DNA of 64,000 bases from Apostichopus japonicus (lineage: Eukaryota; Echinodermata; Holothuroidea; Aspidochirotida; Stichopodidae). The notes beneath the pieces were generated by a model. It was not told the origin of the DNA. It saw only the letters and a program-made list of their open reading frames with translations, and made no database searches. Positions 2,516 through 64,000 of the stretch are shown piece by piece (the stretch's first letter is position 1; each line of letters begins with the position of its first letter). The stretch is from NCBI RefSeq assembly GCF_037975245.1, contig NC_092570.1, positions 10,827,001 to 10,891,000 on the forward strand, read 5' to 3'. The position numbers were made by a program, and so were the translations under genes.

Positions 2516-3179
2516 TGATATTGACTTAAAATGGTGTTTACTGATGAAATATAAATAATAGACTTAGCATTTAAAACAAGCATGCATAATTTTAGTTCAG
2601 CTCGGTATTCTTACCAGGTTTCTTTGTTATAACAAAAAGGGACATAGCCTCAGTTTTTTAATCCAATTCAGGTTCTTATTTGCCTATTGTATCTATAGGA
2701 AAGGCTAATTATTCAAATTTTCCTTTTACACCTGATAACATCTTCAGTATGTTATTGCAAACTTCATTCTTTAACTTTAGCACATCTTTAGCACATGAAA
2801 ATGATTATACTTATGGAACTCTAGTATTTCCCATGTTTTGTTTATCACTGCATCAGTAAATGCACGCCAGTGTTTTAATTATGTTTTATTTTAGCCTTCA
2901 TCTTTAGCACCTGAAAATGTTAGAATTATGGAACTCCAGTATTTCCCATGTTCTGCATGTTTTGTTCTTCACTGCATCAGTAAATGAATATAATTTGTCT
3001 ACATAGTACATTCTGTGTTTTCTGTTCATTGTGTTTCTGGTGTTTTCCTAAAGCGAAAATAAGTGGACATACTCTTATGTTTATAGCTTCTGTTTGAGAA
3101 TAATTTAATTGGGTGACAAAACCAATTGTTTTCAATATATCTTTACAAAATTAACGTTGAAAGCTTAAACAGACAAACT
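2516..3179. other. 3' flank of the first gene with a ~117-bp tandem duplication
   Basis: No coding exon seen. Two diverged copies of a segment starting 'catctttagcac' lie at about 2782 and 2899, each running through 'ttcactgcatcagtaaatg' or a close variant. The 3' UTR of the upstream gene should lie at its left end. No clear AATAAA was found. Confidence 0.5.
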
Positions 3180-3640
3180 GCAAAACGAGTGAAAATCATG
3201 ATCATATTGATTGACAGTCCCAATCATATAAATAAAAAACATTTTTAGACTAATAGTCATTCTAAATTAGATTCTAAAGTCAATCTATTAGATTTCTACC
3301 TTTTCAATCTATAACAGATTGAAAGTCAGTTTTTATGATCAAAGAGTCAATCATATGGAATGACTTTTATCAGTCTAATTGACTGATAGTTACAATCGTT
3401 TTAGATTGAAATTGTCGTTGGCTTTAAAAGTCAATCCAATTCAGATTAAGAAAATCAATCCATTAGATTGATATATTAATCTTAAAAAACACTGACTTTC
3501 AATCTTTTAAGACTAATTTTTTTTCAATCTTAAGACAGACTGAAAGTCAGTCTAAGCCGATTGGTCCCTAATATCAATCTGCCAAAGATTTAAAATTCAA
3601 TCTTAAAGAGTGAAAAGTCAATCTTACGAATTAAGAGAGT
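3180..3640. repeat. Field of degenerate palindromic 'agattgaaagtcaatct' motifs
   Basis: About 460 bp is built of imperfect copies of AGATTGA and TCAATCT half-sites in both orientations, often as a palindrome around AAAGTC. Examples are 'agattgaaagtcag' near 3317 and 'agactgaaagtcagtct' near 3536. It looks like the subterminal repeat field of a DNA transposon whose ends I could not define. No coding capacity. Confidence 0.5.
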
Positions 3641-4188
3641 ACTCTTTACAAACTTCATTTAATACAGTCAAGGAATTCTGTAAAGAACAAGTAACTTGAC
3701 ATTTGAATACAATTCTTCCGGTGACAGGCAGTGTAATGCTTATTTTAAAGAGCAAAAATATTTCAAACTTAGTGGAACGCTCCATCTCATGAATTTGTTG
3801 CTAGCTCGAGATGTGGTTGATTGAATGTAACCTATTTTGATTAGCTGAACCCTCGATTTTCTAGGTAGAATGTCACAGTTTGTGGCCTTTGGTGTCACCA
3901 CAGATTGTCTTCTAAGCTTTTCTTTCCGATTATAATTCTCTTGTTAATTTACCTCTCAAGTAAACATGGTACATTTGCAATGTTTTCTTACATGTCAATG
4001 TTCTCAGTATTCAAAATAACACCAATTTTAAATTTTTAACATCAATAATTAGATTTTTCTGTCGAAAAGTTCATATCATTGCCATACAAACTTCTATGAG
4101 GATGAAACATTCCAACAAGTTTATTTGTAATCAACTGTAGCCAAGGCAATATCGCTTTATTATACCGAGTTGGTGAACACCGTACCGT

Positions 4189-9925: not shown

Positions 9926-11085
9926 GGCTATATGACCATCACGACATATTCCAATATAAGATTTAACATAGGCTATGACCATTAAGTATCCACGACATAT
10001 ACCAATATAAGACTTAATATAGGCTATGAACATTATGTATCCACGACATATACCAATATAAGACTTACTATAGGCTATGAACATTATGTATCCACGACAT
10101 ATATCAATATAAGACTTAATATAGGCTATGACCATTAAGTATCCACGACATATACCAATATAAGACTTAATATAGGCTATGAACATTATGTATCCACGAC
10201 ATATACCAATATAAGACTTGATATAGGCTATGAACATTATGTATCCACGACATATACCAATATAAGACTTAATATAGGCTATGACCATTTAGTATCCACG
10301 ACATATACCAATATAAGACTTAATATAGGCTATTAACATTATGTATCCACGACATATACCAATATAAGACTTAATATAGGCTATGAACATTATGTATCCA
10401 CGACATATACCAATATAAGACTTAACATAGGCTATGACCATTAAGTATCCACGACATATACCAATATAAGACAATATAGGCTATGAACATTATGTATCCA
10501 CGACATATACCAATATAAGACTTAACATAGGCTATGACCATTAAGTATCCACGACATATACCAATATAAGACTTAACATAGGCTATGACCATTAAGTATC
10601 CACGACATATACCAATATAAGACTTAACATAGGCTATGACCATTAAGTATCCACGACATATACCAATATAAGACTTAATATAGGCTATGAACATTATGTA
10701 TCCACGACATATACCAATATAAGACTTAACATAGGCTATGACCATTATGTATCCACGACATATACCAATATAAGACTTAATATAGGCAATGAACATTATG
10801 TATCCACGACATATACCAATATAAGACTTAACATAGGCTATGACCATAATGTATCCACGACATATACCAATATAAGTCTTATCATAGGCTATGAACATTA
10901 AGTATCCACGACATATACCAATATAAGACTTAACATAGGCTATGAACATTATGTATCCACGACATATACCAATATAAGACTTAATATAGGCTATGAACAT
11001 TATGTATCCACGACATATACCAATATAAGACTTATTATAGGCTATGACCATTATGTATCCACGACATCTACCAATATAAGACTGT
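9926..11085. repeat. 51-bp minisatellite, ~22 copies
   Basis: Tandem copies of a 51-bp unit containing 'aggctatgaacattatgta' and 'ccacgacatataccaatata', with few substitutions. Because 51 is a multiple of 3, long stop-free frames appear on the minus strand as a 17-residue repeat. No gene context supports translation. One copy (near 10473) is shortened. Confidence 0.95.
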
Positions 11086-50600: not shown

Positions 50601-52241
50601 ATCACATATAAATGAATTCCATGTGACCTAGTTGTTAAAAAATTTGCATAGGGGCAGTCATTAGCCATAGGGGCAGTCATTAGCCATAGGGGCAGTCATT
50701 AGCTTTGTGCTTGCTGTTCTAGAAGGCACAGTTACCATCTTAACTTCGAAGAATCCATTACTACTCTTTAATATTATGGAAGCAACTTTGCCAACAATGT
50801 GGGACACCTTGGTTTTGCAAAATTATTGGAATTTATTAGTTATTTCATGTGCTCTTCAAACTTACCACAAATGTTTTTTCAGAACAATTACCATTTAAAT
50901 GTTTCTTAATGGTCTGAAAAATACCCTATAAGGATAAAGAATATCTATATTCTTGCTGCTCTATTGATCCATTCCCTGGCTGCACCACTGCCCAACATTG
51001 GTCATAGTTTTGTTTTAAATTTCAGATATTGAAGTTAGAAATTTAAAACACCAGATAAGTGTTCATATTTACTCTCTAACAAGTACAATTTCTACTAGGC
51101 AGTGTAAAGTGTAGTATTGCTAAAACATTAGTAATCGTACCAATGGGATACAAGGTGTCAAATTAAGTGTAAAATCAACTTTTACAATAACTACTGCAAA
51201 ACAGCTCAGATAGCTACTACCTTGCTTAAGAAATGTAGTTGTGTGTTATAATCGTGTGGACTGCACCTAAATGGCTTGTTTTCCTGGTACTCAGTGGCAA
51301 TAGTTACACAGTTCTAAGAACCTCTGTGAAAGATTGTCTTGAAAGTTAAGTACTTTCTTTTACCACAAGCCTCATTCTTTATTACAGGTTAAAGAATTTT
51401 GCACTGAAGCTATCACTGTATGTGAAAATTTGATCCACCCTCGAATGCCACAGATACCTATTGTAAGGATTCCCGAAGAAGAAACAGAAGCAAATTTATC
51501 TAGTCATCTACCATCGTTATGTTTTCCTGGTAAGGGACACTTTAATGTTAACACAGTCACAGAATCAGAAATTTCCCCAAACCTAGATCAACAGGATGTA
51601 ATATCAGAGATTGTGCCTGAAGACAAGCTGCTTCACTCAGATATCACCACTGGGGGAAACTTCAAGGAAACCCAGTCCCAAAGGATGGAAATATCTTATG
51701 TAGGAGAACTTAATCAAACTGAGGAGAAAGGTGAATATGGCCATGATGGAGATCATCCTAAAAAACATGAAGATACAGAGCAATTTGATGATATAGCCAT
51801 AGATAGGGAGGAAGATAATACAGACCAAGAGGAAGAGACATTAGGTAGTGATGGAGAAAGTGGAGATGTCGATGAAGTGGAAAAAGTGACATCTGAAAAC
51901 AACATCATGCTGAAAGAGGGTGGAGTAGAAGAAAGTGGAGGAAGAATTAAAACACTAACTTGTGACAATCAGGTAGGCAACTGGATTTTGTCATTCATTT
52001 TAAGGGCTTATAAAAAATGGTTAAATCTGTGATTTCTGGGTCAAAGATCTGAGTGGTAGGCACTATTATAAAAACAAAATGAAAAACCTGAAATGATATT
52101 GAAAACCCTTTTGTTGTATATCTTACTTTGCTAATAACTTCTCCTGTGGTTTCTTTCTATTCCTAAACACAGAATAACAAAGGATCCATTGATGAGATGC
52201 TTGCATCATTTTCCACAGAGGGACCCGACATTGAAGCCTAG
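26469..52241 (+). CDS. PELP1: PELP1 (RIX1-domain nucleolar/nuclear-receptor coregulator), 16 coding exons
   Basis: Sixteen exons join without a phase break into a 794-residue protein: 26469-26618, 31622-31686, 33194-33299, 34184-34333, 35132-35266, 36594-36744, 37271-37400, 37996-38083, 42259-42353, 43176-43289, 43671-43809, 46150-46300, 48882-48937, 50274-50474, 51388-51972, 52173-52241. PELP1 is the animal RIX1 relative. With TEX10, WDR18 and SENP3 it acts in 60S subunit maturation, and it coregulates nuclear receptors through LxxLL motifs. Conserved blocks include GLEVLLTCMKFFPGPCGAMR (residues ~162-181), CFALLPSIGG and YQSAACRKELYHVLLA. LxxLL motifs occur at 99-103 (LHLLL) and 373-377 (LLQLL). 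A basic PRKKKQKK stretch (455-462) looks like a nuclear localisation signal, and ~688-760 is acidic. The C terminus DEMLASF matches the family's MLADF end. Vertebrate PELP1 has a much longer Pro/Glu-rich tail; here it is short. The start is ATG in ttcaagATGG. Confidence 0.93.
26619..31621 (+). other. PELP1 intron 1
   Basis: A 5-kb intron. It contains a gggttgggcgatat transposon-end-like stretch (27283-27360), a perfect 38-bp palindrome (27367-27404) and a ~2-kb inverted-repeat element. The part 29360-31621 shows no exon or clear repeat. Confidence 0.7.
27386..29359. mobile_element. ~2-kb fold-back element with ~0.8-1-kb inverted arms
   Basis: The left arm (~27386-28346) and right arm (~28548-29359) are diverged reverse complements; the ends share 'ccgatttccc' and its inverse 'gggaaatcgg'. 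The spacer of about 200 bp contains an (ATT)n run at 28404-28424. The outer arms hold 'gggtccaggggc'-type G/C-rich blocks, and the inner arms include 'aatacaattagttgtgttt' and its inverse. No transposase and no certain target duplication. Confidence 0.75.
31622..31686 (+). CDS. PELP1: PELP1 exon 2 (residues 51-72)
   Basis: Acceptor ...tttgctcctag, donor gtttgt (a weak but reused donor form, see exon 13). Encodes DGSHYNDLVGYINRCLGTSS and the first two bases of Arg72. Confidence 0.88.
32309..32350. repeat. 42-nt near-perfect hairpin in PELP1 intron 2
   Basis: Two 21-nt arms around gccatatggc are exact complements except one base. Could be a tiny MITE remnant. Confidence 0.8.
32450..33115. repeat. 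Three diverged ~240-bp tandem units in PELP1 intron 2
   Basis: Units share 'gccatggggccactgaagc'-type sequence and 'agattgtgctaataaa' tails (near 32665, 32915 and 33075). The T/C-rich end of the second unit includes cttccaacag, which could be mistaken for an acceptor. Confidence 0.7.
33194..33299 (+). CDS. PELP1: PELP1 exon 3 (residues 72-107)
   Basis: Acceptor cttctttgtacag, donor gtactc. Encodes IAGLALLGPLVSQ and QQFQQHCLSWLHLLLQIIQ, closely matching the family's 'LFQQHCVSWL' block. Contains the first LxxLL motif. Confidence 0.93.
33660..34080. repeat. Interspersed repeat of the 'aggtca' family in intron 3
   Basis: Diverged copy with 'tgtatgcggatccaggc' and 'gtcaaaggtc' phrases, related to the larger blocks at 36000-36450 and 46490-48540. 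Confidence 0.5.
34184..34333 (+). CDS. PELP1: PELP1 exon 4 (residues 108-157)
   Basis: Acceptor ...tcccatttatcag, donor gtaagt. Phase 0 at both ends. Encodes a helical segment with LKLCSSLVNQVLSKASSY and SKLIQPLVEKALQIKDE. Confidence 0.92.
34661..34911. repeat. 124-bp tandem duplication in intron 4
   Basis: Two nearly identical copies starting 'caagctctttaatta' at 34661 and 34785, so the duplication is recent. Confidence 0.9.
35132..35266 (+). CDS. PELP1: PELP1 exon 5 (residues 158-202)
   Basis: Acceptor tatctctctag, donor gtatgt. Encodes RVLCGLEVLLTCMKFFPGPC and a helix to NSKNDHVAE, one of the best-conserved RIX1/PELP1 blocks. Confidence 0.94.
36000..36450. repeat. 'aggtca'-rich interspersed repeat in intron 5
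   Basis: Contains 'gacaccttggcttgtaaac', 'ctaggtcaccagaggtcg' and 'gagtcaaaggtcattt' phrases shared with the blocks at 45400, 46490 and 58540. Confidence 0.65.
36594..36744 (+). CDS. PELP1: PELP1 exon 6 (residues 203-253)
   Basis: Strong pyrimidine tract and cag acceptor, donor gtgaag. Encodes TAGNCFALLPSIGGGGVGGV and EAWSYYMKKLLNTLKDLFSK, matching the family's 'CYSRLPSLG...SW' block. Confidence 0.94.
37271..37400 (+). CDS. PELP1: PELP1 exon 7 (residues 253-296)
   Basis: Acceptor ...ttactgtttgacag, donor gtaagt. Encodes AFENQEKGSDIIPLPQP and a helix with AEQAQRMLHIMRSMLE. Confidence 0.9.
37414..37790. repeat. Poly-T run followed by ~33-bp minisatellite in intron 7
   Basis: A run of T at ~37412-37439 is followed by about ten loose copies of 'aatgattcattgtaatagaa' plus 'ctcaatgcacc' with variable length. 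Confidence 0.85.
37996..38083 (+). CDS. PELP1: PELP1 exon 8 (residues 296-325)
   Basis: Acceptor ...gtttctttttcag, donor gtatgt. Encodes NIFPATVIIPHRDILAMICN ILAVTGSSL. Confidence 0.93.
38546..38943. mobile_element. hAT-like element nested in the 38213-41646 element
   Basis: Ends caagggcgtaggaa and ttcctacgccactg are inverted, flanked by identical tcaaaaag at 38538-38545 and 38944-38951. Long G- and C-runs lie inside the left end. The body repeats 'gcaccaaattgcatct' twice. Confidence 0.85.
38961..40346. mobile_element. hAT element nested in the 38213-41646 element
   Basis: Ends caggcttgggg and ccccaagcctg are exact inverses. Target duplication atctcaga lies at 38953-38960 and 40347-40354. 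Subterminal regions are arrays of 'taatcgtaatcgatta' on both sides. It is itself interrupted by the element at 39733-40020. A 90-codon frame at 39187-39459 has no family resemblance. Confidence 0.9.
39733..40020. mobile_element. Innermost hAT-like element (288 bp)
   Basis: Perfect 16-bp inverted ends caggcgcgtagccagg and cctggctacgcgcctg. Flanks cgtgttga (39725-39732) and cgtgttaa (40021-40028) match at 7 of 8 positions. Its interior is homologous to part of the element at 4273-4873. A MITE by size. Confidence 0.9.
42259..42353 (+). CDS. PELP1: PELP1 exon 9 (residues 326-357)
   Basis: Acceptor ...tacttcttttacag, donor gtaata. Encodes TLNGSTQSCYLLMVLTGI and HEASLELLNAFIL, matching the family's 'IHLEALDLLSALIL' block. 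Confidence 0.93.
43176..43289 (+). CDS. PELP1: PELP1 exon 10 (residues 357-395)
   Basis: Acceptor ...ctgtctctcag, donor gtaact. Encodes CSNHLLPHGKVINQLLLQLL and NWTALCDADAKVNSFKF. Contains the second LxxLL motif. Confidence 0.93.
43671..43809 (+). CDS. PELP1: PELP1 exon 11 (residues 395-441)
   Basis: Acceptor ...tacttcctttacag, donor gtacag. Encodes GIKCQVYKTYRTWLIGVGAS and EENAAKLI-like helix sequence, ending HLQESPQQ. Matches the family's 'VYAILELWVQVCGASAGM' block. Confidence 0.94.
43900..44420. repeat. 'gcttgtaaac...atctcaac' interspersed repeat in intron 11
   Basis: Two to three ~200-bp units with 'cttgtaaacatgatatctca' (near 44170) and 'tatttcatgaatatcaatga'-type phrases. The same family recurs at 57530-58640. 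Confidence 0.65.
45400..45980. repeat. 'aggtca' family repeat, second block of intron 11
   Basis: Diverged units with 'atcaaaggtcatcagaggcc' and 'atatctcaattagtgaagc' phrases. Confidence 0.55.
46150..46300 (+). CDS. PELP1: PELP1 exon 12 (residues 442-492)
   Basis: Acceptor tctgaacag, donor gtatct. Encodes a hydrophilic linker with the basic run PRKKKQKKHH, then KQVEHLYVTVLA. This corresponds to the basic, low-complexity linker that carries a nuclear localisation signal in vertebrate PELP1. Confidence 0.9.
46490..48540. repeat. Large 'aggtca'-rich tandem repeat block in intron 12
   Basis: Two kilobases of long tandem units, roughly 300 and 600-1000 bp. They contain direct repeats of AGGTCA or TGACCT, for example AGGTCA-ccaa-AGGTCA at 46800-46815 and TGACCT-caatt-TGACCT-ctgg-TGACCT at 46927-46953. 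Copies recur near 47459, 47755 and 47880. Phrases such as 'ttgatattttgggacaagtt' occur three times. No coding frame survives. Confidence 0.8.
48882..48937 (+). CDS. PELP1: PELP1 exon 13 (residues 492-510)
   Basis: Acceptor ...tttttacttccag, donor gtttgt after CACAGG. Encodes LRTLFFTCGSRLKWTLHR, matching the family's 'LSRTILMCGPLI' block. Choosing the donor after AGG keeps phase 0 into exon 14. Confidence 0.88.
49026..49165. mobile_element. Solo end of the 38213-41646 hAT family in intron 13
   Basis: It starts tagtgttcaaacgattat and follows the reverse complement of 41646 down to about 41480 with moderate divergence, including 'acgtggaataccag' and 'acatatggaa'. The other end is missing. Confidence 0.75.
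50274..50474 (+). CDS. PELP1: PELP1 exon 14 (residues 511-577)
   Basis: Acceptor ...tctgtgttaacag, donor gtaagt, phase 0 both sides. Encodes DTHLAVTRALLQCQSG, then YQSAACRKELYHVLLASVLV, matching the family's 'SRCRRELYCLLLALLLAPSP'. The frame is only revealed by splicing; a longer frame from 50165 reads the wrong phase. Confidence 0.94.
50648..50703. repeat. 19-bp repeat, three copies, in intron 14
   Basis: ataggggcagtcattagcc repeated three times in tandem, nearly perfect. Confidence 0.9.
51388..51972 (+). CDS. PELP1: PELP1 exon 15 (residues 578-772)
   Basis: Acceptor ...attctttattacag, donor gtaggc. Starts VKEFCTEAITVCENLIHPRM, the end of the conserved helical region, then a Pro/Ile/Glu linker. 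An acidic stretch follows, with HEDTEQFDDIAIDREEDNTD and DGESGDVDEVE (about residues 700-745). The acidic tail is far shorter than in vertebrates. Confidence 0.94.
52173..52241 (+). CDS. PELP1: PELP1 exon 16 (residues 773-794, stop)
   Basis: Acceptor ...tcctaaacacag. Encodes NNKGSIDEMLASFSTEGPDI EA and TAG at 52239. The DEMLASF end matches the conserved extreme C terminus of the family. Confidence 0.9.
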   Translation, partial: NNKGSIDEMLASFSTEGPDIEA

Positions 52242-55248: not shown

Positions 55249-55497
55249 CTAATCAGAGAGGATTCTGAAAAAGTATTCAACTTCAAGGGCACCATCTTCT
55301 GGTAGATCTGTACAGTGAATAGCGTTATTAATTTTTGTGTGGCCAAACTTGGCTCTCAAAGTGTTGGGTCGAAGGTGGCGTGCAATCTCTGGATCTGCTG
55401 GGCCCACAAATTCTCGAAACTTTGTGGGAATATTGTCACCTTGGCCAGTCACTTCCAGAACAATGCATGGTCCAGAAGATAATTCGTTCACCATGTC
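55249..55497 (-). CDS. NME7: NME7 last coding exon (NDPK-B C-terminal half)
   Basis: Minus-strand acceptor ctcatttcttctcag, phase 0, stop TAG at 55251-55249. Encodes DMVNELSSGPCIVLEVTGQG, then FREFVGPADPEIARHL, the histidine segment NNAIHCTDLPEDG and EVEYFFRILSD. Confidence 0.96.
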   Translation of the reverse strand, partial: DMVNELSSGPCIVLEVTGQGDNIPTKFREFVGPADPEIARHLRPNTLRAKFGHTKINNAIHCTDLPEDGALEVEYFFRILSD

Positions 55498-58400
55498 CTG
55501 AGAAGAAATGAGATGTACTAAATGTGATACATCAACATACTAAGTATGGCATCTGCCTTTGTTGAATATATTGTGTTAAACAAGGTTTTCACAATTTGAC
55601 CACTGGTGAACTCGAAAGACCATTGACCTTTGCCCACAACAATAGGCTTCTTGTACTCAATGTGGTACAATAAGATGTATACCATATATGCGATCTATCC
55701 AAGCTTCCCTTGCGATATTATATTTAGGAAGGGGTGTATTGTAAAGAGACAGGGAAGAGGGGAGTGAAGTGACTGTTTGACATTTATTGACTTCAAATGA
55801 CCTTTGGCCTCCACCAAAAACAATAGGCTTCTTGTACTCAATGTGGTACTTCTACACTAAATCATGAGGTTTGACCAAACTATCTTGTTTGAAAGGTTTT
55901 TACAATTTCACCCCAAATTACCTTTGACGTCCACCAAAAACAAGAGGCTTCTTGTATCCAATGTGGTACTTCTACACACCATATATGAGGTCTGCCTAAG
56001 CTTCCCTTCTTAAGATACTGTGTTTACAAGGTTTTCACAAGTTGACCCCAAATGACCTCCACCAAAAACTATAGGCTTTTTGTACTCAATGTGGTTTGTA
56101 TACATGATAAATATGAGATCTGCCCAACCTTCTTGAGATGTTGTGTTTACAAGGTTTCACAAGTTGACCCTTGGTGACCCAAAAGACCTTTGACCTCCAC
56201 CACAAACAATAGGCTCAAGCTTCCAATATTGAGATCTTGTTTACAAGGTTTTCACAATTTGACCTCTGGTGACCCCAAATGACCTTTGACCTCCACAAAA
56301 AATAGGCTTCTTACACTCAATGTGGTACTTCAACACACTACACATAAATTGGTCTGACCTTCCCTTCCTCAGATAACATGTTTACAAGCTGGGCGTCACA
56401 AACGCACACATATATACATCATCATTAATGCGAGGTTATGATTATCATGAAACCAAAATGTTACTTTCTAACATTATACTGCTGTTTATTTACTGTTTCA
56501 TGTGATACATTGGCTTAGTTGCCAATGTTCTTAGAATTCAATCACTACGAGCTGTTATTTTCCTTAAGTTGGTAGACAAACATTTTATAAAGTATAGCAA
56601 AAACCAAAGTTTTGGGGAGGCTTATTTTTCATAATATGAACTTGCTGTGCTGTTGCCAGATGCATTACAAAATTGTCCCCACAATTGAAACCACAAAGTC
56701 AAATGGCTAAGTGATTATAAAATATATAATGTAACACTGCAGACAAGATTTCAACCATTGCTGAATTCACATGATCAAATGGGTTCTTTTACTCACTAAG
56801 TTGGATCCACATACCAAGAATGAAGTTCTTCCAAGCTTTGTTGTGGAAATTATACACCTAAGGCTTTCAAACTCTGACCTCAAATGACCTTTGAAGTTAA
56901 AGGTCATCAAAGTTTTCATAATTTTGATCACTGGCTAAAATGATCTACGGCCCCTATGAGTTCTTGCACTTATTATGGTGGATCCACACACTGAGTTTGA
57001 AGTTCATCCAAGCATTGCTTATGAAGTTACAGGGTTACAAGGCATTTAGACTTTGACCTCTGGTGAAATCTATTCCCTTTGACCACCACAGATAGCAATA
57101 GGGTTATTCTGCTCTCGTAGATGCTACCATGAACATTTTGAGAGAGTGAGTTTACAAGCCAACTATTGATTGATTGTTTTTGCCTTTGGCAGGAAATCTA
57201 CATGTAGGTACCACAAATAGTACTTGAAAGTAACTCAAAGTATAACTGAATCAATACCTCCTATATAAAGACTGTTCAAAGTTGTAAAGTTACATTCAGA
57301 TACCATTTCATATAATTTGAAATACTCACTATATATTCAGCAACAACTCCTTTGTAGACTTCAAAGAATTCTTCTGCATTTGCTTTCTCCATGTGAAACA
57401 TCTGCAGCCCTGTTACCTGATAACCCTGAGCAGTAATTGCAGCCATAATCTCACCAGCTTTATCTGTAAACAAAACAGTAAAAAGGTTTGCAATATTCCA
57501 TTTGGTTACTAAGGGGCAGGAACCTTTGCAATCGTGTTGGCATGTGTATGCGTGGGTGCATGTGTGTGGATGTGACCGCTAGCTTGTAAACATGATGTCT
57601 CAACAACCACAAGTTGAGTCACTGTCATGCTTGGTAGGTTGATGTCCCATAATGTGCCCTATTGTTTGTGGTTCCCATCTCAGGAATATTAATGAGTGGG
57701 TGGGCCTGAACATGAAATTCTAAAACTGTCAATATCTCTCTAATCCTATGTCTGACTTAGTTCATACTTGGTTTGGTGATTTAACTATATAGTAAGTAAA
57801 TGTTATTTGCAACAAGAACATTTACCTCATTAATATTCATGCTTGGGTGGGGCTTAATGAGAATTCGTAGAAAACGGCTTGTAAACACGATACCTCAACA
57901 AACACAAGTTGAATCAATGTCATACTTAGCAGGTAGATGCCCCATGATATGAAGATGTGCCCTATTGTTGTTGGTTCCCATCTCTTGAATGTTAAGTGGG
58001 CGGGGCTTAACAGAAAATTATTTAAATTGTCACTATCTGTGCAACCGTATGTCCGGTTACTTTATACTTGGTACAGTATGGTGATGTAACTATTAGTAAG
58101 TATCTTCTTGCATCAACATGTTTTTACTTCCTTAATGTTCATGAGTGGGTGGGGCTGCAATGGGAATCCTTGAAACCGCTTGTATACACAATATCTTAAC
58201 AAACACTTGTTGAATCAATGTCATACTTGGTGTTAAATGCCCTAATTATGAGTAGATGTGCACTATTGTTTGTAGTTCTCATCTCATGAATACTAATGAG
58301 TGGGCAGGGCTTACCATAACATTTGTAATGTCAATATCTCTTCAACCATTATGTGCGATTTATTTTATAGTTGGTATGGTGATGTAACTACAAAGTAAAT

Positions 58401-61400
58401 ACATGTTCTTTGCAACAACAATTTTACAGAGCATTAAGATTTATGTGTGGGTGGTTTTAATGGGAAATAGTCAAAAACAGCTTGTAAACAGGATATCTCA
58501 ACAAACACAGGTTGAATCAATGTTATATATGGTAAGTAGATTCAGCTTGGGGAGCACACTAACCCTATTGAAATTAGTAGATGTCAAAGGTCACATGAGG
58601 TTGACAGTTGTCAAAGTCTGCAAACCTTTTAAACATGATAACTAAAAATTTCAAGCTACCATTAATTTTTGAATTCTCCAATGCTATGATTGTCTTTTTG
58701 TGAACATAGTTTGGTCTGTTTAGTTTTGTTAAGGTCCCTATAAGACTTCAAGAAAACATGCAATCATCCAGGAAATGAAATCTGCATCAAAGTGTTGCTT
58801 TAAACATGACCTGACACTGTGGTTATGAGTTTTTAACCTCTGACCTTCTAGGGGTCAACAGGTTATGTCACATGGGCTCAAAATTTCCCATTTTCCCTGA
58901 GATTTATACTAGATGACTTTTGCTTTTGGCAGTAGGTTGTGAAAATATTTCAGAGTATTATAAACAATACAATGTAACTCTCATTCATTAATAACAATTA
59001 TTAAAGGGATGTTTCTGTTGCAGAGGTGACTTCCTAGCTCAAATTAGTAAAAGAAAATGTTCCTTTATTCATCTATGTGTCTATGACTCTCATGGGAAGA
59101 CTGTCCTTTCTGGATATATTAACACTTTGGAATAAAAATTCTATACTGTAAAATCCTTACCAGTGAATGAAATTGTTAAAGGCCCACAAGGGAGAGTGCT
59201 ACAAATAAGATCTGCAAATCTCTGATATTTTCTGGGTCTCACTTAATTCTTGGACAAATTTAATTCGCTAGCTCCACATGAATCAGATAGTTATTTTGAA
59301 AATTGCTAAAACCTAATTTCTAAGTTTTTTGACATTTGGCCTATGATGTCATCAATCACCCAGGCACGAGTTAACATGTTCAAACACCTACCCACCTTTT
59401 TGAACTTCATCGAACCTACTGTCATAAAGTTAGGCCAATTTTACCTTTGACCCTGACCCTAAATCTGTCTTATTCCAAAACAAATTCTCATCATTCTCTA
59501 AATAACGTGTGGTTTTAATGCATTTTTTCAACATGTCGACATGCAAAAATATGGCTATACCAAGTTTTAGATATCTTGACCTTTGAACTTTGACTAATGA
59601 TGTCATCAAATGTGTAGGCACTACTTTACATGGTTAGGCACCCACCCACCAAGTATGAACTTGATTGGAATTAGGGCCTAGGAGGAGTTTGTGACAACTT
59701 TTTCGCACAATTTAGGACATTTTTACCTTTGAACTCAATTGACCCCAACCCTAAACAATCTGTCTTATTTTATAATTTGTCTCATCATTCTTTACATATA
59801 GGTTGAGGACCTCTGAGCTTTGTTCTATGACATCATGAATCACATACTCACAATTTAACATGGTCAGACACCTTCCCACAAATGAACTTGATAGGACTTA
59901 GGGTCTAGGAGGAGTTCGCAAAACACTTTTTTTGTTCACTCACATACACATACACACACACCCACATCCTCACATTTCTGATGTGGGGTGAAGTACAATA
60001 TCTCATCTCCATATACATTACATGTAGGGAGGTGAGATTATAATATTGTAGTTGTTGCTTCAATAACCAACTTGTTGAAGGCTTGAAGTTTGTAGGAGAA
60101 CTTTATTTTAGTGAGTGTAGGAATTGAAAAACAGAGAGAGATAAGTACTGTAATGTCTCCAGTGGGATTGTGGCAAGAAGGATTATGTAAGGTACCATAC
60201 CATTCATCCTAGAGGGACAAATATCAATGTATTCCTTTTACCTATTGACTGTCAGTATCTTCTGGATTCATAAAATGCTTTTTCAGTTTGAAAAGGTTGG
60301 AAAGCGACTGATTTAGGCTAGTAAACAATGTTACTATACAGTTTTCAGTCTTTTAGAATATTCTTGCCAACAAAGGCTGTCTCTAATCTCGGTTTCATTT
60401 GGCATTATGCAATTTTCAATGATCACCTTAACTATAGGGGTCTGAAATTTTGTTGATGTCTATACATTATACAACACCACCATTGTAGAGAATTTGTAGC
60501 AAATCGTTGATAATTATCGTTGATAATTGTAGGAACTCAAAGAAAGACTTTTTTGAAATAATTTATTTTGGGAGTTATACTAATACAGCACTGTATCAAC
60601 TATGTACAACCACCATCCAACTTTGAAAGGATGGATACAACTATCATGAGAACCATGAATAACACCAACATCACTCATTGACATAGTACATATCTATCTT
60701 CAAACTTACTTGTATCCACAGCACTTGGTTTGATGATACAGCAGGTACTGCCTTGATGCATAGCAGTATTACGTCTGACTTTTGAACCAAAGAAAAAATT
60801 ACATTCACGCTGTGCTGACATAGTGGAGTCTGAACCATGGCATGCATTCTGTGTTTGATCTGATGACAAGAAGAGAAAATATATCAGAGGATGTTATTTC
60901 ATTAATAAAACAACCAATAGTTACTTCCAAGTTTCATAAATTGAGTGCAAAAAACAAACCTCTAGGCATTAGAGAAACTCAGTTGTTTAGCTTAGAAACA
61001 GTCCAGATATTTAAATGCTTCCACTTTATATGCATGCATCATATAATTTCTCTGTAATGATCATTATTCTAAGCACAACAGATAAACTCTTATCTAGATT
61101 TTGTTGGAAGGAAATGTTACTTTAAAAGGATGCAGTATTTGGTCAGGCGCAATGGAAGCAAATGGTTCTATGGAGAATCAAAGAGTAAGTACCAATCAAT
61201 ATGACAAACAGTGCACAAACAGTATGACAAACAGTTTGTTCCAAAACTTAGCATATTTTGTTACCAATCTCAGACCTTTGACTTTAATGTTATCCAGAGA
61301 AGTATTATGTCATCCTCTCACGTCTCCTTAAGTATGTAGCATTACTGACATGCATTACTCACCAGTTCCAACATTAATTATGTAGCATTACTGACATGCA

Positions 61401-62937
61401 CTACTCACCAGTTCCAACATTAAGTATGTAGCATTACTAACATGCACTACTCACCACTTCCAAACATTGCTCTGATGCTATTGGGGGCATCGCTTAACAT
61501 TACTGACATGCATTACTCACCAGTTCCAACATTAAGTATGTAGCATTACTGACATGCACTACTCACCACTTCCAACATTAAGTATGTAGCATTACTAACA
61601 TGCATTACTCACCAGTTCCAAATATTGCTCTGATGCTATTGGGGGCATCGCTTAACATTACTGACATGCAGTACTCACCAGTTCCAAACATTGCTCTGAT
61701 GCTATTGGGGGCATCGCTTAACATTACTGACATGCACTACTCACCAGTTCCAACATTAAGTATGTAGCATTACTGACATGCACTACTCACCACTTCCAAC
61801 ATTAAGTATGTAGCATTACTAACATGCATTACTCACCAGTTCCAAACATTGCTCTGATGCTATTGGGGGCATCGCTTCACATTACTGACATGCATTACTC
61901 ACCAGTTCCAAACATTAAGTATGTAGCATTACTGACATGCACTACTCACCACTTCCAACATTAAGTATGTAGCATTACTGACATGCACTACTCACCACTT
62001 CCAAACATTGCTCTGATGCTATTGGGGGCATCGCTTAACATCACTGACATGCATTACTCACCAGTTCCAACATTAAGTATGTAGCATTACTGACATGCAC
62101 TACTCACCACTTCCAAACATTGCTCTGATGCTATTGGGGGCATCGCTTAACATCACTGACATGCATTACTCACCAGTTCCAACATTAAGTATGTAGCATT
62201 ACTGACATGCACTACTCACCAGTTCCAAACATTGCTCTGATGCTATTGGGGGCATCGCTTAACATCACTGACATGCATTACTCACCAGTTCCAACATTAA
62301 GTATGTAGCATTACTGACATGCACTACTCACCACTTCCAAACATTGCTCTGATGCTATTGGGGGCATCGCTTAACATCACTGACATGCATTACTCACCAG
62401 TTCCAACATTAAGTATGTAGCATTACTGACATGCACTACTCACCACTTCCAAACATTGCTCTGATGCTATTGGGGGCATTGCTTAACATTACTGACATGC
62501 ATTACTCACCAGTTCCAAACATTAAGTATGTAGCATTACTGACATGCACTACTCACCACTTCCAAACATTGCTCTGATGCTATTGGGGGCATCGCTTAAC
62601 ATTACTGACATGCATTACTCACCAGTTCCAAACATTAAGTATGTAGCATTACTGACATGCACTACTCACCACTTCCAAACATTGCTCTGATGCTATTGGG
62701 GGCATTGCTTAACATTACTGACATGCATTACTCACCAGTTCCAAACATTAAGTATGTAGCATTACTGACATGCATTACTCACCAGTTCCAAACATTGCTC
62801 TGATGCTATTGGGGGCATCGCTTCTTGCTTTACTGCTGTCTGTGGGTCCAAGTAACTCTCTCCAAGCACCAATAGCTCCATCTTTCATCAATTCCATTGC
62901 AATAATTGGGCCACTGGTCATGAATCTTACCAGATTG
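55249..62937 (-). CDS. NME7: NME7 (nucleoside diphosphate kinase 7), last four coding exons
   Basis: Minus-strand exons 62937-62783, 60859-60710, 57463-57330 and 55497-55249 join with matching phases into the C-terminal 228 residues; human NME7 is about 376. NME7 has a DM10 domain and two NDPK domains (A and B), and associates with the gamma-tubulin ring complex and cilia. The DM10 domain and first half of NDPK-A lie beyond the window. NDPK-A shows GPIIAMEL, then the active-site histidine in NACHGSD. NDPK-B starts CCIIKPSAVDT and runs through FEVYKGVVAEY and FREFVGPADPEIARHLRP to the second histidine in NAIHCTDLPEDG, ending EYFFRILSD. Both catalytic histidines are kept. Splice joins recreate Asp (G|AT) and Asn (A|AT) codons. 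Confidence 0.95.
55560..56400. repeat. Tandem ~125-bp 'aggtca' family units in NME7 intron
   Basis: About six units with 'ataggcttcttgtactcaat' and 'tgacctttgacctccacca' phrases. TGACC half-sites recur. Confidence 0.8.
56780..57130. repeat. Further diverged units of the same family
   Basis: Phrases 'ctgacctcaaatgacctttg' and 'ggtggatccacacactgag' continue the pattern between exons. Confidence 0.55.
57330..57463 (-). CDS. NME7: NME7 exon (start of NDPK-B)
   Basis: Acceptor ...ttgtttacag, donor gtgagt after ATA. Encodes KAGEIMAAITAQGYQVTGLQ and FHMEKANAEEFFEVYKGVVA EYI. The first codon, shared with the upstream exon, becomes Asn. Confidence 0.96.
57530..58640. repeat. Tandem ~230-bp repeat units in NME7 intron
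   Basis: Four to five units with 'cttgtaaacacgatacctca', 'cccatctcatgaatattaat'-like and 'gtgggtggggctt' phrases. Same family as 43900-44420. Confidence 0.8.
58800..60000. repeat. Diverged repeat with 'gatgtcatcaa' and 'tgacctttgaac' phrases
   Basis: Units around 59300-59950 repeat 'ctatgatgtcatcaatcac', 'cacccaccaagtatgaact' and 'ttaggacatttttacctttg' variants. Ends with a CA-rich stretch near 59940. Confidence 0.6.
60710..60859 (-). CDS. NME7: NME7 exon (end of NDPK-A, start of NDPK-B)
   Basis: Acceptor cttgtcatcag, donor gtaagt. Encodes QTQNACHGSDSTMSAQREC, a linker FFFGSKVRRNTAMHQGS and TCCIIKPSAVDT. Carries the first active-site histidine. The acceptor before ATCAAACAC (not the inner cacag) is needed to complete the Asp codon. 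Confidence 0.95.
61331..62782. repeat. Higher-order tandem array derived from the NME7 exon end and splice donor
   Basis: Two subunits alternate. One of about 65 bp contains an exact or near-exact copy of the last 41 nt of the NME7 exon at 62783 plus its gtgagt donor and start of intron. The other, about 47 bp, holds a donor-like ggtgagt but no full exon end. They combine as 65+47 (112-113 bp, seven steps in the right half) and as 65+47+47 (158-159 bp, left half), with one 65-bp step. Eleven exon-end copies lie near 61469, 61627, 61692, 61851, 62010, 62122, 62234, 62346, 62458, 62571 and 62684. About 27 donor-like sites in total. It lies wholly in the intron downstream of the exon. Confidence 0.93.
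62783..62937 (-). CDS. NME7: NME7 exon (NDPK-A core), parent of the tandem array
   Basis: Acceptor ...gataacaatgcag, donor gtgagt at 62782. Encodes NLVRFMTSGPIIAMELMKDG, then AWRELLGPTDSSKARSDAPN and SIRAMFGT. Phases 2-in and 1-out agree with the next exon. The last 41 nt are repeated many times downstream. Confidence 0.95.
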
Positions 62938-63020
62938 CTGCATTGTTATCAATATAAATACAAATTTAATCAAATAAATCAGAGTACAATGCAATTTACA
63001 AATATCATGACTACTGTACT

Positions 63021-63760
63021 ATGTTTGTCACTCTATTTCAGGATAATATCATTATAAGTTGACATAGGACATATCATCAATAATCTCTAGTTCATACTGT
63101 ACAGTACCCTCAATCAACTTCATGTTTGTCACTCTATTTCAGGATAATATCATTATAAGTTGACATAGGACATATCATCAATAATCTCTAGTTCATACTG
63201 TACAGTACCCTCAATCAACTTCATGTTTGTCACTCTATTTCAGGATAATATCATTATAAGTTGACATAGGACATATCATCAATCATCTCTAGTTCATTCT
63301 GTACAGTACCCTCAATCAACTTCATGTTTGTCACTCTATTTCAGGATAATATCATTATAAGTTGACATAAGACATATCATCAATAATCTCTAGTTCATAT
63401 TGTACAGTACCCTCAGTCAACTTCATGTTTGTCACTCTATTTCAGGATAATATCATTATAAGTTGACATAGGACATATCATCAATAATCTCTAGTTCATA
63501 CTGTACAGTACCCTCAATCAACTTCATGTTTGTCACTCTACTTCAGGTTAATATCATTATAACATTTTAACATAAGTTGACATAGGACATATCATCAATA
63601 ATCTCTAGTTCAAACTTTACAGTACCCTCAATCAACTTCATGTTTGTCACTCTATTTCAGGTTAATATCATTATAACATTATAACATAGGTTGACATCAG
63701 GCAGAGCATCAATAATCTCTAGTGCATACTGTGGAGTACCCTCAATCAACCTCAATCAAT
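63021..63760. repeat. 101-bp satellite, seven copies, in the preceding NME7 intron
   Basis: Units begin near 63022, 63122, 63223, 63324, 63425, 63526 and 63640 with 'atgtttgtcactctatttca'. Spacing is 101 bp except for a 13-bp insertion in the sixth unit. Very low divergence. Confidence 0.95.
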
Positions 63761-64000
63761 GCTCTGAAGGACTGTTGGATTCATCCAACAAGGAGTCCTA
63801 CAATTAAGAGTATGTACACCATCTTACCCAAACTAATCAGAAAACTGCATGTATTTTCACTATGAATGAGAAGTGTAATCTCAAATATGACAATGTTTGG
63901 GCAACTTTATGCATCTACATTCAATGCACTGACACAAATAGGTGAACTGTTTGTTAACACCTTTCAACAGCTTCCTTTCTACATTCAAGGAAAACCTAAG
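63761..64000. other. Intron of NME7, no exon seen
   Basis: I looked on the minus strand for the preceding NDPK-A exon and did not find it. The upstream exons must lie beyond the window. Confidence 0.5.

Follow-up and report, generated by a model that had tools for sequence, protein, structure and literature searches.

The stretch analysed here, called the window below, comprises 64,000 nucleotides of the sea cucumber Apostichopus japonicus (contig NC_092570.1, positions 10,827,001 to 10,891,000) and carries on its minus strand exons of NME7, one of which abuts a 1.49-kb tandem array of copies of its own 3' end and splice donor. This coding exon (62937-62783, 155 nt, minus strand) follows an acceptor, ATGCAG|C at 62938/62937, as judged from the sequence, and ends in phase 1 with TTTGGAACTG, then GTGAGTAATGCATG. 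Its protein belongs to nucleoside diphosphate kinase (NDK) domain 1 (Pfam NDK, 6.6e-13). The top solved-structure sequence for the exon was 8snb, a nucleoside diphosphate kinase (E 4.4e-27), which we take to be a sea urchin protein, and the next four were named NDK 7 or homolog 7. When only the last NME7 exon was searched, 8snb again led by whole-chain E-value, but per domain a chain named NDK 7 came slightly ahead of it (115.4 versus 113.7 bits).

The other exons were placed by tblastn with human NME7 as query. Downstream exons start at about 60859, 57461, and 55500, with gene order kept; they occupy, all on the minus strand, 60710..60859 (acceptor TCATCAG|AT), 57333..57461 (ends approximate, from tblastn) and, for the last coding exon, 55252..55500 (5' end approximate). 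Upstream exons were located in the stretch L011, also in order, with incomplete residue coverage. An authentic coding exon therefore caps one end of the array, since the NDK exon is open and aligned and the other NME7 exons follow in order. The NDK match, the structures named NDK 7, and the ordered later exons bear out the name NME7 that a preliminary description of this DNA had given to the gene. The next exon opens with AT and completes a GAT codon, which backs the donor at 62782 as the true 5' splice site (GTGAGT, 62777..62782, minus strand). The intron after the 155-nt exon measures 1,923 nt, and the array occupies about three quarters of it.

The array (61331..62823, minus strand) holds 12 exon-end copies and 27 donors, one of each being real. 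GGTGAGT sites run from 62782 to 61362 and number 27, that is, the true donor and 26 extra ones (61357..62735, minus strand), while a 24-nt core of the exon end is present in the real exon and in 11 further copies, 12 in all. When the array is cut at GGTGAGT, the 26 inter-donor intervals are of two types. The 11 A units (66 nt) join 25 nt from the start of the intron to the final 41 nt of the exon, and the 15 B units (46 or 47 nt) join 32 nt from the intron start to the final 14 or so exon nt. Beside the exon, in 61927..62823, they form a regular A+B dimer of 112/113 nt (Tandem Repeats Finder: 112 nt, 8.0 copies, 98% match); farther from it the order is irregular, with B-B and A-A neighbours and a block B5-B3-A present at two places. 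The 26 intervals comprise 14 distinct unit sequences, whose variants lie in an ordered pattern. At 61331..61362 (minus strand) the array ends in a last donor and an intron edge, past which the intron goes on as single-copy DNA (CTACATACTT|AAGGAG). Every copy lies in the splicing orientation of the gene, and the window has 35 GTGAGT sites on its minus strand versus 10 on its plus strand, so that the clustering of donors is not due to chance. The donor context is CTG|GT or GTG|GT, not AG|GT. The local amplification of exon end, donor, and intron start, the orientation, the coordinates, and the counts of 27 donors and 11 extra exon ends were all correct in the preliminary description; only its word "satellite" is too large for a 1.5-kb minisatellite at a single locus.

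The array is confined to the NME7 locus at the sensitivity used, and its two unit types span the exon 3' end and the donor. The genome searched comprises 671,581,487 bases in 35 contigs, and match counts from it are lower bounds. The 112-nt unit gave at least 15 matches, and all 15 fell inside the NME7 array, which answers the question of whether the same unit lies at unrelated loci in favour of a single locus. Within the window and outside the array the unit yields short matches only, the longest exact one being 14 nt.

The exon part was said to show almost no decay, and the mean pairwise difference over its 41 nt in 12 copies is indeed 0.024. This is not particular to the exon, as the values are 0.041 for the A intron part (11 copies) and 0.026 for the B intron part (15 copies); the B exon part was left out of the comparison, its value being inflated by a length difference of one base. 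Since exon and intron parts are similarly diverged, the low decay is a feature of the whole young array and not of the exon piece. Recent amplification or homogenisation, as first suggested, is supported, and homogenisation among units is visible in the 98% match across the eight exon-near dimers and in the repeated B5-B3-A block. In 32 core columns compared over the 27 copies, 6 were variable and all 8 donor columns invariant. However, 15% of random placements of 6 variable columns also spare the 8 donor columns; by this test on 27 copies, and by the similar divergence of exon and intron parts, the donors showed no trace of selection, and we rejected such selection as an explanation. Conversion from copies under no constraint can reach exon ends that lie in a homogenising array, and coding change could arise in this way.

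The 27 donors are close to equal. Their predicted pairing with U1 ranges from -10.6 to -10.8 kcal/mol, and TGCATG stands at +9 in 27 of 27, the extra donors matching the true one in both respects. As RNA, UGCAUG is the RBFOX1/2 motif (PMC6453957). The use of the first donor gives an exon of 155 nt, that of the others exons of 202 to 1,575 nt. As the preliminary description had it, splicing at a distal donor would lead to an immediate stop, the predicted reading being ...FGT-GE-stop. The copies are not repeated real exons, a candidate that we rejected since no acceptor or pyrimidine tract was seen before them and the reading frame of the exon runs immediately into a stop. No polyadenylation signal (AATAAA or ATTAAA) was found on the gene strand of the array.

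The preliminary description knew of no named example of such a layout, yet it already has a name: "mirage" minisatellites were described in amphioxus, where regular splicing is reported to stay intact (PMC3087553, PMC3902484). In our view the NME7 array is probably a minisatellite of this type, seeded by tandem duplication over the exon end. It would be tolerated because the donor closest to the exon prevails, and it is itself most likely neutral. It may have started from one or two short tandem duplications over the exon-intron boundary, joined at microhomologies of 2-3 nt. At the B junction, read from the sequence, the intron edge is joined to the exon at a common AA. The A junction shares AAG and requires the loss of 8 nt, which is one possible route among others. 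Joins at microhomologies are the usual look of short tandem duplications. Growth and homogenisation by unequal exchange or slippage would then have given the recent 112-nt dimer beside the exon. A tandem duplication over a donor would always keep the normal exon length at the first donor, and splicing would commit to this exon-proximal site, which defines an exon of 155 nt rather than of 202 to 1,575 nt and is transcribed first. If the exon-proximal donor is chosen, the array would be tolerated because the normal exon length stays available there. Any leak to a distal donor would add Gly-Glu-stop, and the product should be cleared by nonsense-mediated decay.

Arrays of this kind were also seen at other genes of the same genome, and the view that the layout is uncommon could not be kept. 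A search of the genome for kinase domains gave 134 matches, of which 30 were examined with their flanks (20 with about 800 nt on each side, and two sets of 5 with some 300 to 500 nt). Donor arrays running from the exon 3' end into the intron were present at 3 of these 30 kinase exons, which represent 2 independent loci. Two of the three belong to a CDK11-like exon found at two loci of one contig (L036, C11:6326300-6328120, and L037, C11:9612420-9614240), each with its own array of 70-nt units, 12.0 copies in the former and 11.0 in the latter, and with AAG|GTGAGC or GAG|GTGAGC (mostly AAG) at nearly all of the 11 GTRAG sites in each. As the two stretches are 94% alike, they were counted as one event, and their difference in copy number is one between loci, not between alleles. 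The third lies at a PRKG-like exon end (L061, C6:18781687-18782460, positions 446-774), where 42-nt units are repeated 7.8 times, running as far as the stretch retrieved, and the sites read GGCAG|GTAATC in 6 of 8 cases and GGCAA|GTAATC in the other 2. At an SGK/AKT-like exon (L057, C9:14703211-14704060, positions 758-850, continuing into L058), two separate downstream copies lie about 210 nt from the exon with TT in place of the donor GT; they are a candidate for a decayed or re-inserted mirage. Two further candidates were dropped: the match in L056 is a 13-nt chance match only, and the repeats in L063 do not derive from an exon but are low-complexity intron. At the 30 kinase exons we saw no array on the acceptor side, the edges of the domain matches often falling short of the exon ends. 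Arrays of at least 100 nt cover 4.0% (4,805 of 120,000 bases) of 12 stretches of 10 kb taken at fixed coordinates (L021-L032) and 11% of the window, where 14 arrays were merged by hand. Two independent arrays in 30 exons is about what this density would give if exon ends were unprotected.

Several observations weigh against a neutral array that is ignored by splicing, or against donor arrays as a recurrent class. The true donor is not favoured by predicted local folding, its accessibility ranking 25th of 27, and we rejected the idea that RNA structure hides the extra donors. Three of the 11 extra copies equal the true exon end over all 41 nt, and each of them differs from the intron of the true donor by a single base in the first 23 nt. 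With exon end and intron start near-identical, the true donor must be told apart by the body of the exon upstream, by length, or by the order of transcription. The donor and TGCATG are kept in all 27 copies, as they also would be in a regulatory array. That the first donor wins is what we infer for NME7; regular splicing has been reported for the amphioxus mirages. In 284 kb (the window and L011-L032) there are 27 arrays with a period of 20-300 and no fewer than 2.5 copies, and the donor motif occurs in the NME7 array only, i.e., in 1 of 54 strand-consensi versus 0.67 expected. Over the whole genome, GGTGAGT donor triplets gave 1,626 matches versus 953 for the reversed control (1.7-fold only), and AGGTRAGT donor triplets 1,046 versus 760 (1.4-fold only). 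Such matches cluster inside arrays and are not independent, so that their counts give no number of loci; they are suggestive, and an excess of donor arrays over the genome is not established by them. The likeness of the NME7 donors makes the locus a natural experiment: with 27 donors, equal U1 pairing, and nearly the same local context, what makes the spliceosome pick the first?

The alternative that survives best, although we consider it unlikely, is that of a splicing rheostat, in which the extra donors with their TGCATG would compete with the true donor or attract U1 and Rbfox-type factors, and copy number would tune productive NME7 mRNA through nonsense-mediated decay of read-through isoforms. 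The equal U1 pairing of the 27 donors, the constant TGCATG at +9, and the immediate stop on distal donor use all agree with it. So do reports from human cells, where repeated motifs act as decoys and 39 of 73 RBFOX decoy-affected events have UGCAUG in the downstream intron (PMC6453957), and where an intronic 38-bp variable number tandem repeat (VNTR) of TERT alters splicing (PMC3948165). On the other hand, the donors carry no signal of selection, and TGCATG was present in the true-donor copy and would just have been carried along. The motif is also in ordinary number elsewhere in the window (outside the array, 32 minus-strand and 33 plus-strand sites), and it is absent from the printed units of the CDK11-like and PRKG-like donor arrays. 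Amphioxus mirages are reported to leave splicing undisturbed (PMC3087553, PMC3902484). A bolder form of the proposal, which strikes us as very unlikely, would have the 27 equal donors and UGCAUG load U1 and an Rbfox-type factor on the NME7 intron, with array length setting both exon definition and the share of transcripts that is decayed; donor mirages would then be a copy-number-tunable gene control common to invertebrate deuterostomes.

We are highly doubtful of another reading, early intron gain or exon remodelling, according to which the units provide donors and exon pieces for later recruitment, as proposed for amphioxus globins. This model was put forward for mirages themselves (PMC3087553), and human tandem repeats over exon-intron boundaries can create novel introns (PMC2812944). 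In the NME7 array, however, the CTG|GT or GTG|GT context, not AG|GT, leaves the units without a matching acceptor, no pyrimidine tract was seen ahead of the exon-end copies, and translation continued from the exon into the array would meet a stop at once.

There is scarcely any likelihood, to our mind, that the array is a false expansion made by the assembly. Tandem arrays are error-prone in assembly. HiFi reads are more than 10 kb long. The genome searched here matches a published PacBio HiFi assembly in its statistics (PMC10344927), so reads would cover 1.5 kb, and if it is that assembly an artefact is unlikely. One amphioxus mirage did look aberrantly assembled in a draft genome (PMC3087553). 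Against an artefact stand the distinct variants of the copies in their ordered pattern, with 14 unit sequences in 26 intervals, and the further donor arrays of this genome, among them the CDK11-like array at two loci with differing copy numbers. A general satellite that drew in the exon end is the least credible of all and was rejected, for although tandem arrays abound in the genome, each of the 15 matches to the 112-nt unit falls within the NME7 array (counts being lower bounds) and the exon-derived part runs continuously from the true exon.

Other repeats and features were recorded in and around the window. A separate tandem array of 101/114 nt lies in the preceding NME7 intron (63021..63754) and stops short of the exon, and tandem arrays make up 39% of positions 55252-64000. 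At 9940-11083 a 51-nt unit is repeated 22.5 times (94% matched), with long open stretches in some frames. An open reading frame at 51343-52029 (plus strand) has a weak match to the PELP1 middle domain (E 0.0044, under the curated cut-off) and an acidic tail; it is likely part of a neighbouring gene. Scans with Rfam and for tRNAs added one tRNA and nothing else. In L012 (C10:10901001-10911000, positions 2592-3990) a 466-nt unit with a pyrimidine tract and CAG is repeated 3.0 times at 100% match, possibly an acceptor-side duplication or another recent duplication, without gene evidence. A 22-nt satellite of no less than 27 kb begins about 32 kb past the window end (L014-L016, C10:10923423-10951000). 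The donor-triplet matches listed include 40-nt repeats of CTGGTCAG|GTGAGT at G000:C1:4703609-4705357, a candidate further mirage.

Among known systems, the amphioxus mirages are the closest to the NME7 array. They occur in Adh3, BflGb6, BflGb9, and TnC, with similar repeats in PGBD5 (PMC3087553, PMC3902484); the latter paper reports the PGBD5 repeats and cites TnC. Mirages are recognised by splice signals in many units, and the NME7 array has GGTGAGT in 27 of 27. It differs in its host, a sea cucumber, in its 27 donors, in having two unit types as a dimer, and in being restricted to the donor side, whereas both boundaries occur in amphioxus. The copy numbers given for amphioxus are smaller, 6 and 3 units in BflGb6, and 2 or 7 and 3 or 6 in PGBD5. 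Human genes in segmental duplications likewise show minisatellite expansion over exon-intron boundaries that can alter splicing, but their repeats average 30-bp units in 4 copies, lie in recent paralogues, and in some cases form new introns with transcript support (PMC2812944). The human TERT intron 6 VNTR is, like the NME7 array, an intronic minisatellite in a coding gene, with 38-bp repeats (PMC3948165). The birth of introns from AG|GT tandem duplication (Rogers 1989 and later, via PMC3087553) also duplicates an exon segment that bears splice signals; in NME7, by contrast, the boundary of an existing intron was duplicated, the donor is CTG|GT or GTG|GT, and the unit has no acceptor. No echinoderm mirage was found in the literature searched, which was judged by title and with subscription papers mostly outside reach. 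The kind of array is thus known. Against that literature, three things appear to be new: the occurrence of a mirage in an echinoderm, the presence of several mirages in a single genome, and an array whose 27 donors are set in an order of two unit types. This extends mirages from amphioxus to several genes of an echinoderm genome, and they may be a general trait of certain invertebrate deuterostomes and not a peculiarity of cephalochordates.

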